From assembly GCF_009741925.1 (NCBI RefSeq), contig NZ_WPCC01000012.1:1-64000 (forward strand): a stretch of 64,000 nucleotides of DNA, written 5' to 3'. The translations under genes and the position numbers were made by a program. This document shows, in pieces, positions 2,472-48,295 of the stretch; position 1 is the stretch's first letter, and each line of letters opens with the position of its first letter. The stretch is from Natronomonas sp. CBA1123 (GTDB lineage: Archaea > Halobacteriota > Halobacteria > Halobacteriales > Haloarculaceae). The notes under the pieces were generated by a model that was given only the letters and a program-made list of their open reading frames with translations, was not told where the DNA came from and made no database searches.

Positions 2472-3197
2472 TCAGAATTCGACTATCTCTCCGTCTTCGG
2501 GTATCGTCACGCCCTCGACGGCCGCTCGCAGGTCGGCCCGCGTGACCAAGCAGTGGTTGATAGCGTCCATGTGGTCGGCGATAACGGGCACGTCGTCGTC
2601 GACGGCCGCCCGGACCGACGCAACGTCGTCTTCGTCCATCGTGATGGGTTCGCCCTCGACGAACCGGGCCCCGCCGGCGTTGACGACGACGGCGTCGAAG
2701 TCGTAGGCATCGATGGTTTCGGCGACGGCGTCGTACCAGACGGTGTCGCCGGCGAGATACAGCGACTCCGCGCCCTCGAAGACGACGCCGAGGACGGGCG
2801 CCATCTTCTCTGCCAACTCGCCGTGGCCGTGGCGGGCCGGCGTCGGTTCGAGTATCACGTCGCCGAACGAGTGGTGGATATCGAGCGGTCGGACGTCCTC
2901 GAAGCCCTCCTCGCGGAACTCGTCGGCCTCCTCGGGATGGCAGAACAGCGGTATCTCGCGGTCGAGGAACTCCCGGGCGGCGTCGTCGAAGTGGTCGCGG
3001 TGACGGTGGGTGACGACGACCGCGTCGTGTGTGAGGTCGACGTCCGGGCGTTCGACGAGCGGGTTCTCGCGGTCGTTGGGCGTGTTCGGAATCGGCGGGA
3101 TGTCGCCCGGTTCGCCGAGCATCGGGTCGACGAGGAACGTCGTCTCCCCCAACGTGACGAGCAACGTGGCGTGGCGGACGAGTTGAACGGTAGGCAT
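2472..3197 (-). CDS. MBL-fold metal-dependent hydrolase (UlaG-like)
   Basis: Metallo-beta-lactamase fold hydrolase of 241 residues in the cytosol; substrate unknown. The signature THRHRDHFD (about residues 63-71) supplies the HxHxDH metal ligands, and later ligands are ARHGHG, LAGDTVW and ADHMDAINH. The short N-terminus (MPTVQLVRHATLLVTLG) goes straight into the fold, as in the UlaG/L-ascorbate-6-phosphate lactonase-like group. It is convergent with the pilin-like gene, with six bases between stops, and stands alone, so context gives no substrate. Confidence 0.85.
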   Translation of the reverse strand: MPTVQLVRHATLLVTLGETTFLVDPMLGEPGDIPPIPNTPNDRENPLVERPDVDLTHDAVVVTHRHRDHFDDAAREFLDREIPLFCHPEEADEFREEGFEDVRPLDIHHSFGDVILEPTPARHGHGELAEKMAPVLGVVFEGAESLYLAGDTVWYDAVAETIDAYDFDAVVVNAGGARFVEGEPITMDEDDVASVRAAVDDDVPVIADHMDAINHCLVTRADLRAAVEGVTIPEDGEIVEF

Positions 3198-3379
3198 ACC
3201 GTCACCAGTACCGAGGGCGCCCTAACTATTGGTGTGCCGGCAGGCCTCGAATCGGCCGATACGCCGCCTGTGATTTTCCGGGTTAAATTATAAACGCGTT
3301 TGGCCATCCCCGTTCTACGATGAATGGTTTAGATAAATAGCCGAAAGCGTTAACATTTGCTAACAGTTGTTCACTAGTT

Positions 3380-4834
3380 ATGAACAGCGACCGCCGGCGT
3401 ATCGCGTCCGGCACACCGGGCCTGGACGAGGTGCTTAGAGGCGGGTTTATCCACGGACAGACCGGCATCATCAACGGCGGGCCGGGCACCGGGAAGACGA
3501 TTCTCGCGTTGCAGTTTCTCACCGCGGCCGACGGGCCGAGCCTCTACATCGGCTTCGAGGAGCGGGAGGCCGACATCAGACGGAACGCCGAACAGCTCGG
3601 CATCGACCTCTCGGGAGTGACGATACTCGACCTCAGCGCCGGTGGCGAGCGGTTCTTCTCCGAGGACTCCTACAGCGTGTTCCCGGCCGAGGAGGTCGAA
3701 GGCGAGGACCTACTGGAGCGCATCGCGGCGGCCATCGACGAGGAGGAGCCGGAGCGACTCGTCGTCGACCCGCTGTCGGAGTTGCGGTCGCTGCTGCCCG
3801 ACGAGTACCAGTTCCGGCGCAACATCTCCTCGCTCATCAACGAACTCAAAGAGCGGGAGACGACGACGCTGTGTACGACCCAACCGATGGAGGGGAGCGC
3901 CGAACAAGACCTCAAGTTCCTCGGCGATTTGACCATCGAAATCCAACGGACGGTCGACCACCGCACGCTGGAGGTGACGAAGTTCCGTGGCTCGGGGTCC
4001 GCAGACGGCCGTCACACCTATTGCATCCGGTCGGGAGCGGGCGCCCGCGTGTATCCGAAGCTCATCCCCGGGGACCACCAACGCGAGCGGTCGCGCGACC
4101 AACTGTCGGCCGGCATCGGGGAACTCGACGACCTCCTCGGCGGCGGCATCGAACAGGGTTCGGTCACCGTCGTCTCCGGCCCCTCGGGTGCCGGCAAGAC
4201 CACGCTGGGGTCGCTGTTTCTTGAGGCCGCCGGCGAGCGCGGCGAGGACAGCGTCGGCTATCTCTTCGAGGAGTTGAAATCGGACTACCTGTATCGGTCC
4301 GGAGAAATCGACATCGGCGTCGAACCGCTCGTCGACGACGGTGTCGTCAGAATCGAGGAAATCGAGTCGCTGACCCAAAGCCCCGACGAGTTCGCACACC
4401 ACATCCGGACGGCCGTCGAAGAGGAGGGCGTCGAAGTCGTCATGATAGACGGCATCACCGGCTACCGACTCGGTCTCCGTGGCGAGGACTCACAGGCCGA
4501 ACTCACCCGCGAACTCCACGCCCTGTGTCGCTACCTCAAGCGAATGGGTGTCACCGTCATCCTCGTCGAGGAAGTCGAGAACATCACCGGTGACCTCTCG
4601 GCGACCGACGAGCAAATCAGCTATCTCGCCGACAACATCCTGTTTCTCCGGTATCTGGAAACCAACGGCGAGATTCGGAAGACGGTCGGCGTGTTGAAAA
4701 AGCGCTTCGGCGACTTCGAGCAGTCGCTGCGGGAGTTCGAGATAACCGACTCCGGCGTCGAGGTCGGGCCGAAACTGACTGGGATGCGGGGTATTCTGAC
4801 CGGCATTCCCGAGCCAGCTGACGAGTCCGGCTGA
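3380..4834 (+). CDS. KaiC-like tandem RecA ATPase
   Basis: A 484-residue protein of the KaiC/RadA-like family with two RecA-type domains in tandem. Walker A motifs are GGPGTGKT (about 33-40) and GPSGAGKT (about 266-273); Walker B-like strands are RLVVDPLSEL and VVMIDGITGY. The C-terminal half continues with LRYLETNGEIRKTVGVLKKRFGDFE, typical of haloarchaeal KaiC-like proteins (HTR-like ATPases). A spaced TAACA direct repeat and an AT-rich box (about 3331-3340) precede ATG 3380. The stop TGA shares one base with the ATG of the LOV histidine kinase, so the pair is one operon. True circadian function is not implied: no KaiA or KaiB is present. Confidence 0.88.
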   Translation: MNSDRRRIASGTPGLDEVLRGGFIHGQTGIINGGPGTGKTILALQFLTAADGPSLYIGFEEREADIRRNAEQLGIDLSGVTILDLSAGGERFFSEDSYSVFPAEEVEGEDLLERIAAAIDEEEPERLVVDPLSELRSLLPDEYQFRRNISSLINELKERETTTLCTTQPMEGSAEQDLKFLGDLTIEIQRTVDHRTLEVTKFRGSGSADGRHTYCIRSGAGARVYPKLIPGDHQRERSRDQLSAGIGELDDLLGGGIEQGSVTVVSGPSGAGKTTLGSLFLEAAGERGEDSVGYLFEELKSDYLYRSGEIDIGVEPLVDDGVVRIEEIESLTQSPDEFAHHIRTAVEEEGVEVVMIDGITGYRLGLRGEDSQAELTRELHALCRYLKRMGVTVILVEEVENITGDLSATDEQISYLADNILFLRYLETNGEIRKTVGVLKKRFGDFEQSLREFEITDSGVEVGPKLTGMRGILTGIPEPADESG

Positions 4835-6687
4835 TGGACCCGCTGGATGGCCCCTCGCCGAAGTTGTATCCGAGGCCCGATAGCGACGACAGTGGCGACG
4901 GGATTTCCAATAGTACACCACAAATCGCTCTCGGAGTCACCCAGCAACGGGACAGGGAGTTGTTGGAGTCGCTCCTCTCGACGTTCGAGGTGACCGACCT
5001 CGCCGACCCCGTTCCAGAGCGGACCGACCTGTGTATCGTCGGTACTGATGCTCTGGCTGCGTTCCGCGGGGCGCTACGGGAGTGGAAAACACGGGAGCGG
5101 CCGGCCACGGCACCGGTGTTGCTGCTGACGACCGACTCGGCCGAGGACGCGTGGCGTCGCCACGAGGAGTCCGTCGGCGAGTTACTCGATGGCATCCAGC
5201 CGATTCCGGCGCCGAGACGGGCGATTCGCTCCCGCGTCGACGGACTGTTGGCGACGCGCCGACACTCGTTGATGTCGCGGCAGCGCCAGCGGGAACTCGA
5301 ACTGTACAAGCGAGCGATAGACAGCGCCGGCGTCGGCATCAGCATCGCCGATGCCGACAGAGACGATTTGCCGCTCGTCTACGTCAACGACGGGTTTCTC
5401 GATATGACGGGGTACGACCGAGAGGAGGTCATCGGTCGGAACTGTCGGTTCCTGCAGGGCGAGGACACGGACGAGGCGACTGTCGACGAGATACGGTCGG
5501 CGCTGGCCGACGAGCGGCCGGTGTCCGTCGAGATACGCAACTATCGGAAGTCGGGGCGGCCGTTCTGGAACGCCCTCGACATCATGCCGGTACGTGACGA
5601 CGACGGCGAGGTGACGCACTTCCTCGGGTTCCAGCGGGACATCACCGAACGAAAGCGTCGGGAGCGACTGCTCGAACAGTACGGGCGGATATTCGAGGCC
5701 GTCGAGGACCCGATTCTGATTTTGGACGAGCGGAATCGCATCGTCGAGACGAACCCGGCGGCCGACGACGCCTTCGGCACCGGGACATCGATTCCCGAGG
5801 GTACGCAAGCCGAACACCTCTTCGAGGGCGAACAGGCCGCGCAGTTCCGGGCGACGGCGTTGGCGGTTCGCTGGACCGGCAACTCCCGGACGGTCGAAGT
5901 AACGACCGACCCCGAGGGCGATGAGACGGTGTTTCAGTTCCGTTTCCAGCGACTGGAGGCGACGGAAGACTACAGCGAGCGAATCATCGCCGTCAGCCGC
6001 GATATCACGCGAATCCGGAAGTACCAGAACCGCCTGTCGGTGCTCGACAGAGTCCTCCGACACAACATCCGCAACAAACTGAACGTCGTCACGGGACTGG
6101 CGGAACTCCTCGAAAATAGCGGCGACGAGGAGGTGGCGGCGATAGCGGAGGACATCGATACGGCGGCGTCGGACCTGTTGGGGATTGCCGACTCCGCCCG
6201 CGCCTTCAACCGGAGTATCGACCCCGCCGAACCGCGGACGCAGGAACTCGACCTCTCGGCGTTCGTCCGCGAAGTGGGTGCGGAACTCCGCGAGAGTCAC
6301 TCCGACACCGACATCGACATCTCGGTTCCCGAGGCCGCCCCGGCCGTCTGCCCAGCGACGATTCGACTCTGTCTGAAACACGTCGTCGAAAACGCAATCG
6401 AGCATACGACTGCCCCCGACCCCCGAGTGGAAATCGAGGTCGAGGACACCGACGAGTGGGTCGACCTCCGCGTCAGCGACCACGGCCCCGGGTTCTCCGA
6501 GCGCGAGCGGCGGGCGCTGACCAGCGGCGCGGAACGCCCACTGGAGCACCTTCAGGGTGTCACACTCTGGCTCGTTCGGTGGGCCGTCATAAACGCGGGC
6601 GGCCGACTCGACATCCGCGACCGTCCCGAAGGCGGGGCGACCGTCGTCATCCGGCTTCCGCCGGCCGAGCGTCCCGCTACCGTGTAG
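4834..6687 (+). CDS. LOV-PAS sensor histidine kinase (putative blue-light receptor)
   Basis: A 617-residue soluble sensor kinase. Residues 30-145 form a receiver-like N-terminal region (DLCIVGTDAL, APVLLLTT). Residues about 155-272 are a LOV domain with the whole flavin signature: GRNCRFLQ (201-208, photo-adduct Cys204), NYRKSGRPFWNAL, and FLGFQRDIT with the signalling glutamine. A second PAS follows (about 275-390), then an H-box LRHNIRNKLN (His410) and an ATPase domain with ENAIEHTTA and SDHGPGFSE. No transmembrane helix is seen. Co-transcribed with the KaiC-like gene, with overlapping stop and start. A LOV domain binds FMN and senses blue light in all characterised families; the output partner is unknown. 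Confidence 0.9.
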   Translation: MDPLDGPSPKLYPRPDSDDSGDGISNSTPQIALGVTQQRDRELLESLLSTFEVTDLADPVPERTDLCIVGTDALAAFRGALREWKTRERPATAPVLLLTTDSAEDAWRRHEESVGELLDGIQPIPAPRRAIRSRVDGLLATRRHSLMSRQRQRELELYKRAIDSAGVGISIADADRDDLPLVYVNDGFLDMTGYDREEVIGRNCRFLQGEDTDEATVDEIRSALADERPVSVEIRNYRKSGRPFWNALDIMPVRDDDGEVTHFLGFQRDITERKRRERLLEQYGRIFEAVEDPILILDERNRIVETNPAADDAFGTGTSIPEGTQAEHLFEGEQAAQFRATALAVRWTGNSRTVEVTTDPEGDETVFQFRFQRLEATEDYSERIIAVSRDITRIRKYQNRLSVLDRVLRHNIRNKLNVVTGLAELLENSGDEEVAAIAEDIDTAASDLLGIADSARAFNRSIDPAEPRTQELDLSAFVREVGAELRESHSDTDIDISVPEAAPAVCPATIRLCLKHVVENAIEHTTAPDPRVEIEVEDTDEWVDLRVSDHGPGFSERERRALTSGAERPLEHLQGVTLWLVRWAVINAGGRLDIRDRPEGGATVVIRLPPAERPATV

Positions 6688-6745: not shown

Positions 6746-8296
6746 ATGACGAATCTGCTTGCAGATATCGAACAGCGCGCCGCGGAGATGCCCGACGCCA
6801 CGGCCATCGGCTTCCGTGGACAGGAGTTCAGCTACGGCGAGTTCTGGACACAGACCGGCCGATTCGCCAAAGCCCTCGCGGACTCGGGCGTCGAACCCGG
6901 CGACCGCGTCGGCGTCTATCTACCGAACCTCCCGCAGTACGTAATCGCCTTCCACGGGATTCTCCGGGCCGGCGGCATCGTCGTCCCGATGAATCCACAG
7001 TACAAGTCCCGCGAAATCAGCCACCTGCTGGGCGACAGCGGCGCGACGGCCGTCGTCGCGCTCGCTGACCTCGTCCCGCAGGTTCAGGAGGTACAGGACG
7101 ACACCGATGTTCACACCATCGTCAGCGTCGGCGGCGACGCCGACGGTGCAATCGAGTTCGAGGACTTCCTCGCCGACGAGGAACTCGACGTCGTCGACCG
7201 CGACGACGACGACGTGGCGTGTCAGCCGTACACCTCCGGGACGACCGGCACCCCGAAGGGCGTCCTTCTGACTCACCGGAACCTCGCCTTCGAGGCGCGT
7301 GCCTCCCCGAAGATTCACGACGGCATCTACGACGACGACAAGATGCTCGGCGTCCTCCCGCTGTTCCACATCTACGGGATGACGGTGACGATGCTGGCGA
7401 CGCTGTACGAGGGCGGCAGCTACTGGCCGATGGCCGAGTGGGACGCCGAGGCGGCGCTGGAACTCGTCGAGTCGGAGGGCATCACGCTGTTCCACGGCGT
7501 CCCCGCGATGTTCAACGACCTCGTGAACCACCCCGCGGCCGAGGAGCACGACCTCGCGTCGGTCCGGTTCGCCAACGCCGGCGGTTCCAGTCTCCCGCTG
7601 GAGGTCATGCGACAGTTCGAGGAGACGTTCGAACCCGACCTCATGGAGGGGTACGGCCTCACCGAGACGGCGCCGGTCACCCACGCCAACCGACCCGACG
7701 ACCGCCGCCCCGGCTCCATCGGCAAGCCGCTGCCGGGCGTCGAATCGAAGGTCGTCGACCACGACTTCGAGGAGGTCGACCCCGTCGAGCGCGGCCCCGT
7801 CGACGACGAGACGGCACTCGACGACGTGGTCGGCGAAATCGTCGTCTCCGGCCCGAACGTGATGAAGGAGTACTACAACCGACCCGGGGCCAACGAGGAG
7901 GCGTTCACCCATGAAAACGGCACCCGCTGGTTCCACACCGGCGACCTCGGCTACTACGACGAGGACGGCTTCTTCTTCATCGTCGACCGCGAGAAGCACA
8001 TGATAGTCACGGGCGGGTACAACGTCTACCCCCGCGAAGTCGAGGAGTTGCTGTTCGAACACCCCGATATCGCAGACGCGGCCGTCGTCGGCGTCCCCGA
8101 CGAGCGCCGTGGTGAGACGGTCACCGCCTTCGTCGTCAAGCGACCCGACGCCGAGGTGACCGCGGAGGAAATCAAGGAGTACGCCCTCGAGAACCTCGCG
8201 GCGTACAAACACCCACGGGAGGTCAACTTCGTCGACGAACTCCCGCGGACGACGACCGGAAAGGTCCAGAAGTTCGAGTTGGAGGACTTCGAGTAA
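6746..8296 (+). CDS. Long-chain fatty-acid--CoA ligase (AMP-forming)
   Basis: Acyl-adenylate-forming enzyme of 516 residues that activates a carboxylic acid, probably a fatty acid, with ATP and CoA in the cytosol. Visible motifs are the phosphate loop YTSGTTGTPKGVLLTH, GYGLTETAPVTH, the hinge TGDLGYYDEDGFFFIVDREKHMI, and the C-terminal catalytic lysine region TTTGKVQK. The start is ATG 6746, with a purine-rich GGGGGAG just before it; a GTG at 6704 would add 14 atypical residues. It is convergent with the TetR gene, leaving four bases between the two stops. Confidence 0.92.
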   Translation: MTNLLADIEQRAAEMPDATAIGFRGQEFSYGEFWTQTGRFAKALADSGVEPGDRVGVYLPNLPQYVIAFHGILRAGGIVVPMNPQYKSREISHLLGDSGATAVVALADLVPQVQEVQDDTDVHTIVSVGGDADGAIEFEDFLADEELDVVDRDDDDVACQPYTSGTTGTPKGVLLTHRNLAFEARASPKIHDGIYDDDKMLGVLPLFHIYGMTVTMLATLYEGGSYWPMAEWDAEAALELVESEGITLFHGVPAMFNDLVNHPAAEEHDLASVRFANAGGSSLPLEVMRQFEETFEPDLMEGYGLTETAPVTHANRPDDRRPGSIGKPLPGVESKVVDHDFEEVDPVERGPVDDETALDDVVGEIVVSGPNVMKEYYNRPGANEEAFTHENGTRWFHTGDLGYYDEDGFFFIVDREKHMIVTGGYNVYPREVEELLFEHPDIADAAVVGVPDERRGETVTAFVVKRPDAEVTAEEIKEYALENLAAYKHPREVNFVDELPRTTTGKVQKFELEDFE

Positions 8297-47215: not shown

Positions 47216-48295
47216 TCAGGCCCGCGGCAGTTCGACCGTGACGACGGTCCCGCGGGGGTCGTTGTCGGCGATGTGTACCTCGCCGCCGTAGTTCGTCACC
47301 AGCGTGTGGACGAGATACAGGCCGAGGCCGTCGCCGGCGACGCCGGTCGCCATGTCGTCTTTCTCGGTGAAGGACTGCCGAATCTCCTCGGGGATTCCGG
47401 GGCCGTCGTCTTCGACCCGCAGGACCGTCGGGTCGCCGGTCTCGACGGTGACGCGGACCGACGGTTCACCGTCGTGGTGTTCGACGGCGTTCGAGAGGAG
47501 GTTGTCGAGGACCGACCGGAGGAAGTCGTCGGCCCGGACGGTCGCCGAGTCGGCCTCGAGTTCGAAACTCGCGTTCGGATACGTCTCGCGGGCGTCGGCG
47601 ACGGCACGGTCGGCCACGTCGGCGATGTCGACCGGTTTCGCCTCCGGCTCTCCGGACAGCGACTGGACGAGCGTCTGGACGTTCTCGACGAGCGTGACGA
47701 TGCGCTCGCTCTGTCGCTCGATGACTTCGATGTGTTCCGAGGAGACGTCCTCCTCGCGGAGTTCGTCCGTGTAACCGTTGATGATGGTCATTCCGTTGAG
47801 GACGTGGTGACGCAACAGGTGATTGAGGAACGCCATCCCCTCCCGCTGGGCGCGCTCGCGTTCGGCGAGTTCGGCGTTCTGTTTCGCCCGAGCGCGGTTG
47901 ACACCGGTGACGACGCCGAAGAGGATGCCGAGGTTCGCACCCAACAACAGCGTCCCCCGGGCGGCCATGAACTCTCCAGCGATGAGGGATTCGGCGCTGG
48001 CCCACGCCGCGAGCGCTCCGAGCGCGAGGATGCTACCGAACATCCAGCGTGCGACGGTCCACTCTCGGGTGGGGGCCTTTCGCACCGCATACAGCATGAC
48101 GCCGACCGCCACCACCGGCAGGCCGACGTTGATGAAGAGCGTCGAGCCGGACTCGAGGACGCTTCCCGGCATCCCGGATGCGAGGACGTGCCACCCCCCG
48201 AAGAGCGACAGACACAGCCCGATGGCGACCACGACCCACGACCCCTCGATGTCACGTACGGGGACGTTCGGTCGGTTGATGGGCCGATTCGACAT
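47216..48295 (-). CDS. Membrane sensor histidine kinase
   Basis: A 359-residue kinase. Residues about 18-130 hold four helices (GSWVVVAIGLCLSLFGGWHVL, FINVGLPVVAVGVMLYAV, MFGSILALGALAAWASAES and GTLLLGANLGILFGVVTGV) with no large extracellular loop. The H-box NHLLRHHVLNGMTIINGY carries the phospho-accepting His. The ATPase domain shows SVLDNLLSNAVEHHDGEPSV, VEDDGPGIP and GDGLGLYLV. It is an orphan: no response regulator gene adjoins it. Confidence 0.9.
   Translation of the reverse strand: MSNRPINRPNVPVRDIEGSWVVVAIGLCLSLFGGWHVLASGMPGSVLESGSTLFINVGLPVVAVGVMLYAVRKAPTREWTVARWMFGSILALGALAAWASAESLIAGEFMAARGTLLLGANLGILFGVVTGVNRARAKQNAELAERERAQREGMAFLNHLLRHHVLNGMTIINGYTDELREEDVSSEHIEVIERQSERIVTLVENVQTLVQSLSGEPEAKPVDIADVADRAVADARETYPNASFELEADSATVRADDFLRSVLDNLLSNAVEHHDGEPSVRVTVETGDPTVLRVEDDGPGIPEEIRQSFTEKDDMATGVAGDGLGLYLVHTLVTNYGGEVHIADNDPRGTVVTVELPRA

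Follow-up and report, generated by a model that had tools for sequence, protein, structure and literature searches.

The constant partner of the tandem KaiC-like ATPases of haloarchaea is a pseudo-receiver domain and not a LOV photosensor, which is one swappable sensor among the kinases that accompany KaiC. A pseudo-receiver gene adjoins 121 of 124 haloarchaeal tandem KaiC genes; a LOV domain with the photoactive cysteine (Cys-LOV) is found in 47 of the 124 pairs, the rest carrying other PAS domains or nothing. The pair described here lies in the window, by which we mean the whole stretch of 64,000 nucleotides that was analysed from Natronomonas sp. CBA1123 (contig NZ_WPCC01000012.1, positions 1 to 64,000), and it consists of a KaiC-like ATPase (P0001) and a histidine kinase (P0002) with the following features.

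3328..3340, + strand: candidate archaeal promoter element TTTAGATAAATAG, read from sequence alone
3380..4834, + strand: tandem KaiC-like ATPase P0001, 484 aa
4834..6687, + strand: LOV-PAS-histidine kinase P0002, 617 aa, with N-terminal pseudo-receiver
4909..5277, + strand: pseudo-receiver (receiver-fold) domain, aa 26-148 of P0002
5278..5679, + strand: LOV domain, aa 149-282 of P0002
5680..6018, + strand: second PAS domain, aa 283-395 of P0002
6019..6684, + strand: DHp (H410) and HATPase_c kinase core, aa 396-617 of P0002

A recheck of the sequence bore out the coordinates, frames and motifs that a first-pass annotation had given for both genes, together with the second PAS domain and H-box kinase core of P0002 and the overlap at the gene junction, where the KaiC stop codon and the kinase start codon share a single base (TGATG; TGA 4832-4834, ATG 4834-4836). 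The sole candidate promoter seen for the pair, TTTAGATAAATAG, is located about 40 bases 5′ of the KaiC ATG, and the two genes are probably co-transcribed.

The description of P0001 as a tandem-RecA KaiC-like protein stands: Pfam family PF06745 matches it in two stretches (E 1e-67), corresponding to two KaiC domains, and the protein aligns end to end with solved KaiC structures. Both halves are intact and have the full set of tandem-domain KaiC family features, with Walker A motifs (GKT at 38-40 and 272-274), the Walker A lysines and Walker B aspartates (K39, D130 and K273, D357) and the catalytic glutamate pairs (E60/E61 and E297/E298). Cyanobacterial T426 and S431 have their counterparts in T409 and S414; S414-Y415 occupies the site of S431-T432, giving Ser-Tyr in place of the dual Ser-Thr phosphosite, and these positions are Ser in 123 of 124 relatives and Tyr in 109 of 124, respectively. 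P0001 ends where the KaiA-binding tail would start and has no such C-terminal tail; the cyanobacterial residue numbers and the tail assignment draw on background on KaiC as well as on the structure alignment. Its scores lie below the cut-offs of both the clock-KaiC equivalog TIGR02655 (159.7 bits versus 546.25) and PRK09302.1 (256.3 versus 408). Searches with a positive control in Synechococcus detected no KaiA, and no KaiB over the cut-off, in any of the genomes of 60 relatives, in keeping with the earlier proposal of a system that has neither protein. One segment of KaiC, Y98-E107, is strongly conserved in the family and aligns with what we take to be the KaiB/SasA docking-loop region of cyanobacterial KaiC, which makes it a candidate docking site for the partner.

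The N-terminus of the kinase carries a domain that went without mention in the first-pass annotation. Residues 26-148 of P0002 match no Pfam family, and a KaiB domain has no Pfam match in P0002 either; modelled alone with 46 relatives, the same residues reach a pLDDT of 95.8, and comparison of this model with receiver domains yields a VIA Z of about 14 over 105-118 residues. At the phospho-Asp site, 111 of 121 family members have Asp and P0002 has glycine (G70); where receivers carry their Lys, before the conserved Pro125, the family has other residues (I124 in P0002). Judged from the model, residues 26-148 are a pseudo-receiver rather than a receiver by the definition in PMC12632262, because the family is devoid of the receiver Lys and P0002 lacks the phospho-Asp as well. 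The receiver fold rules out for P0002 a KaiB-like N-terminal domain, as had partly been proposed for the corresponding module of Ramlibacter. In cyanobacteria, SasA, CikA and KaiA resemble P0002 in being kinases and pseudo-receivers that work with KaiC. However, SasA has an N-terminal KaiB-like thioredoxin-fold domain where P0002 has a receiver fold, and CikA follows the order phytochrome-type GAF, kinase, C-terminal pseudo-receiver, whereas the pseudo-receiver of P0002 is N-terminal and PAS/LOV replaces GAF; moreover, all three belong to the KaiABC oscillator, and KaiA and KaiB are absent beside the P0001/P0002 system. Both KaiA and CikA act on the cyanobacterial Kai system through their pseudo-receivers, and no functional study of any archaeal pseudo-receiver has been published according to a 2025 review (PMC12632262).

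The search with P0001 covered 60 relatives and then 292 genomes of the class Halobacteria, and the surroundings of 124 distinct tandem KaiC genes were examined. At 92 of the 124 loci a pseudo-receiver and kinase lie downstream of KaiC (33 of the 92 with Cys-LOV), at 15 loci the pseudo-receiver kinase is divergent from KaiC yet adjacent (14 with Cys-LOV), and 14 loci have a KaiC-adjacent pseudo-receiver gene without a recognised kinase core. The first-pass annotation would have given up its proposal had the pair been confined to this strain; conservation in many genomes, far beyond chance, rules out a strain oddity. Small genes of 122-147 aa that encode only a pseudo-receiver, with no kinase in the same gene, follow tandem KaiC at L070, L135, L156, L180 and L193.

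Of the 292 genomes, all searched with the KaiC query and with a pseudo-receiver profile, 186 contained both, two KaiC only, nine the pseudo-receiver only and 95 neither, which leaves 11 genomes discordant (Fisher p about 2e-63, kinship ignored). Since the profile was built from KaiC neighbours and is biased to that subfamily, the informative part of this result is that strong profile hits are missing from KaiC-free genomes, including several of the window's own genus; among 21 near relatives, the nine that have a tandem KaiC all give strong hits and the other 12 give none. Four of the nine genomes with a pseudo-receiver but no KaiC were inspected: two have KaiC fragments adjacent, one is cut by a contig edge and one has no KaiC. 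Pseudo-receiver genes are kept beside a fragmentary KaiC at L123 (G002), L211 and L212, and at L123 the Cys-LOV is still intact. A second pseudo-receiver kinase away from any tandem KaiC is encoded in the window's own genome (L207:1355-3001, G000:C4) and in G009 (L208:5778-7286), in both cases near an 818-aa protein. The pairing extends to bacteria. Among the matches listed by a contig profile search with the KaiC alignment, which took in at least 16 relatives, those from Anaerolineae and cyanobacteria have a pseudo-receiver kinase within about 1.7 kb downstream, and one from Halothiobacillus has a pseudo-receiver gene there in which no kinase core is recognised; none of these has LOV.

Distances between KaiC proteins correlate with those between their pseudo-receivers (rho 0.33, and 0.25 among deep pairs, with no value as high in 300 permutations; kinship ignored), but barely with those between the kinase cores (0.13 and 0.01). 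The Cys-LOV label requires 10 changes on the KaiC tree, and LOV has therefore been gained or lost repeatedly; P0001 falls within a clade of 24 KaiCs (SH-aLRT 98) of which 23 have Cys-LOV partners. In the 60 relatives the exact LOV motif is present in 12 of 36 KaiC-adjacent kinases versus 68 of about 1594 other HATPase genes (33% versus 4.3%, p 4e-8), an enrichment of about 8-fold over a kinase background that takes LOV motifs as lying in kinases and for loci that, being related, are non-independent. The photoreceptor had at first been thought hard-wired to the ATPase; LOV itself as the conserved KaiC partner is ruled out by its presence in a minority of pairs, and the part that is conserved is the N-terminal pseudo-receiver.

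The LOV domain of P0002 itself is complete, as the first reading had it. The motif GRNCRFLQ contains the photoactive Cys204 (codon 5443-5445), and every flavin contact that was checked is present (N203, C204, R205, Q208, N236, N246 and Q267), N236 and N246 being the Asn residues of NYR..FWN and Q267 the glutamine; P0002 thus combines the GxNCRFLQ cysteine and N/N/Q contacts of LOV photoreceptors with a PAS fold. Its closest matches are YtvA and other blue-light receptors; in the alignment with YtvA, 63 of 121 columns are identical, and the model fits LOV structures with an rmsd of 1.1-1.5 Å. Neither equivalog cut-off is reached (BluLightHisKinLov, 154.7 versus 450; YtvA, 171.5 versus 250). The AlphaFold model of the whole protein has a mean pLDDT of 76.9, and the nearest architectures in the PDB are the LOV/PAS kinases NifL, Brucella LOV-HK and YF1, with NifL as the top Foldseek match. 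On these grounds P0002 is probably a blue-light-sensing kinase, and we infer that it binds FMN and is controlled by light. In nine more downstream partners a proline replaces the photoactive cysteine (GxNPRxLQ; L131, L132, L133, L138, L158, L161, L167, L169 and L181), in KaiC clades near that of P0001; the LOV flavin contacts are kept, one with N246 changed, and judging by their residues these LOV-like domains are possibly redox or adduct-free flavin sensors. One divergent partner has histidine at this position.

The kinase core of P0002 retains H410 (H-box), N520 (N-box) and D549, G551 and G553 of the G1 DxGxG motif. Its G2 box reads G575-V-T577 and not GxG; the second glycine is kept in 99 of 107 aligned partner kinases and is replaced by Thr577 in P0002, close orthologues having GVT, GLS or GLT and most other partner kinases GxG. 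Two relatives of P0002 (L126:6365-8158 and L127:3877-5640) have lost the N-box Asn and have altered G1 residues, and from these changes may possibly be pseudokinases. Given Thr577 and these losses, the clade of P0002 may have little kinase activity or be able to do without it.

KaiC-kinase operons are not new as such. The co-transcribed pair Rta_04330/Rta_04340 of Ramlibacter tataouinensis and its relatives, described by De Luca et al. 2011 (PMC3164672), resemble P0001/P0002: kaiC precedes the gene of a kinase that has a conserved, receiver-like N-terminal module, and kaiA and kaiB are lacking; Ser-Tyr phosphosites also appear in that set, including the haloarchaeal rrnAC0131. The differences are that this pair is bacterial, that the accessible text mentions no LOV partner, and that the N-terminal module was likened there to KaiB/SasA as well as to a receiver, whereas the P0002 module is clearly receiver-fold. 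In Haloferax volcanii, cirC is likewise a haloarchaeal tandem KaiC adjoining a PAS histidine kinase; this neighbour is annotated as the oxygen sensor FixL and, in a comparison by description only, no LOV or receiver domain is described for it (PMC3941300). Brucella LOV-HK, the engineered YF1 and the archaeal LOV kinases of Lake Diamante (PMC12202551) share with P0002 the LOV-(PAS)-kinase order, the FMN contacts and the cysteine but, unlike P0002, are not reported beside KaiC; receiver, LOV and kinase architectures are known in archaea, and a LOV domain from a halophilic archaeon has been shown to photocycle at high salt (PMC12202551). Earlier work thus already covers KaiC alongside a PAS kinase, both in bacteria (PMC3164672) and as the cirC/fixL neighbours of Haloferax (PMC3941300), and receiver-LOV kinases of archaea (PMC12202551).

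In the literature searched, whose scope did not include a 2017 mBio paper that reportedly proposes KaiC-like ATPases as archaeal signalling hubs, we found no description of a KaiC-LOV kinase pair in haloarchaea, nor any account of archaeal tandem KaiC in which a pseudo-receiver is its constant partner. Few partners have been identified for the widespread archaeal KaiC homologues, and earlier reports that haloarchaeal kaiC homologues are expressed in a light-dependent manner named no photoreceptor. The KaiC/pseudo-receiver module, with LOV in a subset, is a concrete and purifiable candidate for light input to KaiC without KaiA or KaiB, and the pair suggests a function for an archaeal pseudo-receiver.

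On balance, we consider it probable that the two genes form a dedicated signalling complex. The N-terminal pseudo-receiver of a soluble histidine kinase would dock the KaiC-like double ring; blue light would form a Cys204-FMN adduct in the LOV domain, and the signal would run through the LOV-PAS linker helices into the DHp/HATPase core, where it would shift the kinase/phosphatase balance. The KaiC ring and the kinase would modulate each other via the pseudo-receiver, such that light and the nucleotide or phosphorylation state of KaiC would both be read out by the kinase, and the phosphoryl group would go to a response regulator encoded elsewhere, since the receiver of P0002 itself has no Asp. 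Two lines of argument suggest docking: KaiA and CikA with their pseudo-receivers, and SasA with its N-terminal domain, offer analogies, and the P0002-type pseudo-receiver strictly co-occurs and co-diverges with KaiC. We favour mutual control because KaiC and kinase both appear to keep intact catalytic motifs; docking, mutual modulation and an external target are what we infer for the pair. The first-pass annotation spoke of a light-to-ATPase unit and so presupposed which way the signal runs, a point on which the sequence is silent; a signal from KaiC to the kinase, as in SasA, is as likely. If output were the only role, KaiC would be the sensor or timer that drives the kinase, and LOV would merely gate the kinase, light never reaching KaiC. 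This has a real chance of being correct, short of even: the KaiC-bound kinase SasA is an output in cyanobacteria, De Luca et al. (PMC3164672) propose the same for kinases that adjoin KaiC and have a conserved N-terminal module, and the sensor part is freely swapped while KaiC and pseudo-receiver stay together. However, most pairs retain sensors and LOV is enriched, which fits an input role as well, and in some pairs the pseudo-receiver comes with no recognised kinase core, so that KaiC must have a kinase-independent partner role. The converse, the original reading, in which the LOV kinase and pseudo-receiver set the ATPase or autophosphorylation of KaiC by light and replace KaiA/KaiB, is rather unlikely. 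It accords with the absence of KaiA and KaiB, with the intact catalytic residues and S414 of KaiC and with the action of pseudo-receivers on the Kai system (PMC12632262), yet nearly all partners have kinase cores with intact H, N and G1 motifs, which a pure input module would not need.

That the genes are operon neighbours with shared expression and no complex, the LOV kinase signalling alone, is improbable: adjacency alone never proves interaction and haloarchaea have many LOV/PAS kinases, but the adjacency persists in the 15 divergent loci, and the pseudo-receiver co-occurs with KaiC genome-wide and diverges along with it. We hold it just as doubtful that the flavin domain of P0002 senses redox rather than light. 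The partners in which proline (nine pairs, in neighbouring KaiC clades) or histidine (one divergent pair) replaces the cysteine with most or all flavin contacts kept, and the top Foldseek match to NifL, a flavin redox sensor, would fit such a role; against it stand the photoactive cysteine in P0002 and 46 others and the closeness of the P0002 LOV to YtvA and other blue-light receptors. That the pair forms a true KaiABC-type circadian oscillator is very hard to credit. The homology to KaiC, the light dependence of cir gene expression in Haloferax (PMC3941300) and diurnal transcription in Halobacterium, as cited in PMC5496347, point that way, but the lack of KaiA and KaiB in the 60 relatives, Ser-Tyr for Ser-Thr, the missing tail and a score far under the clock-KaiC cut-off disfavour a clock. 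A long shot beyond the favoured signalling complex is a haloarchaeal KaiC-based hourglass set by blue light without KaiA/KaiB, in which the pseudo-receiver takes over KaiA/KaiB docking and the LOV kinase serves as both light input and output.

Around the pair, an AMP-binding acyl-CoA ligase gene (window 6746-8296, +) follows the kinase; it is also present in the three closest loci (L085-L087) and absent in the six next-closest, and may be part of the operon in the P0001/P0002 subclade. Upstream of KaiC and divergent from it lies a gene for a metallo-beta-lactamase-fold protein (window 2472-3197, -), which recurs in L085 and L086. The window contains a further HATPase kinase domain at 47219-47527 (-), within a 614-aa open frame.
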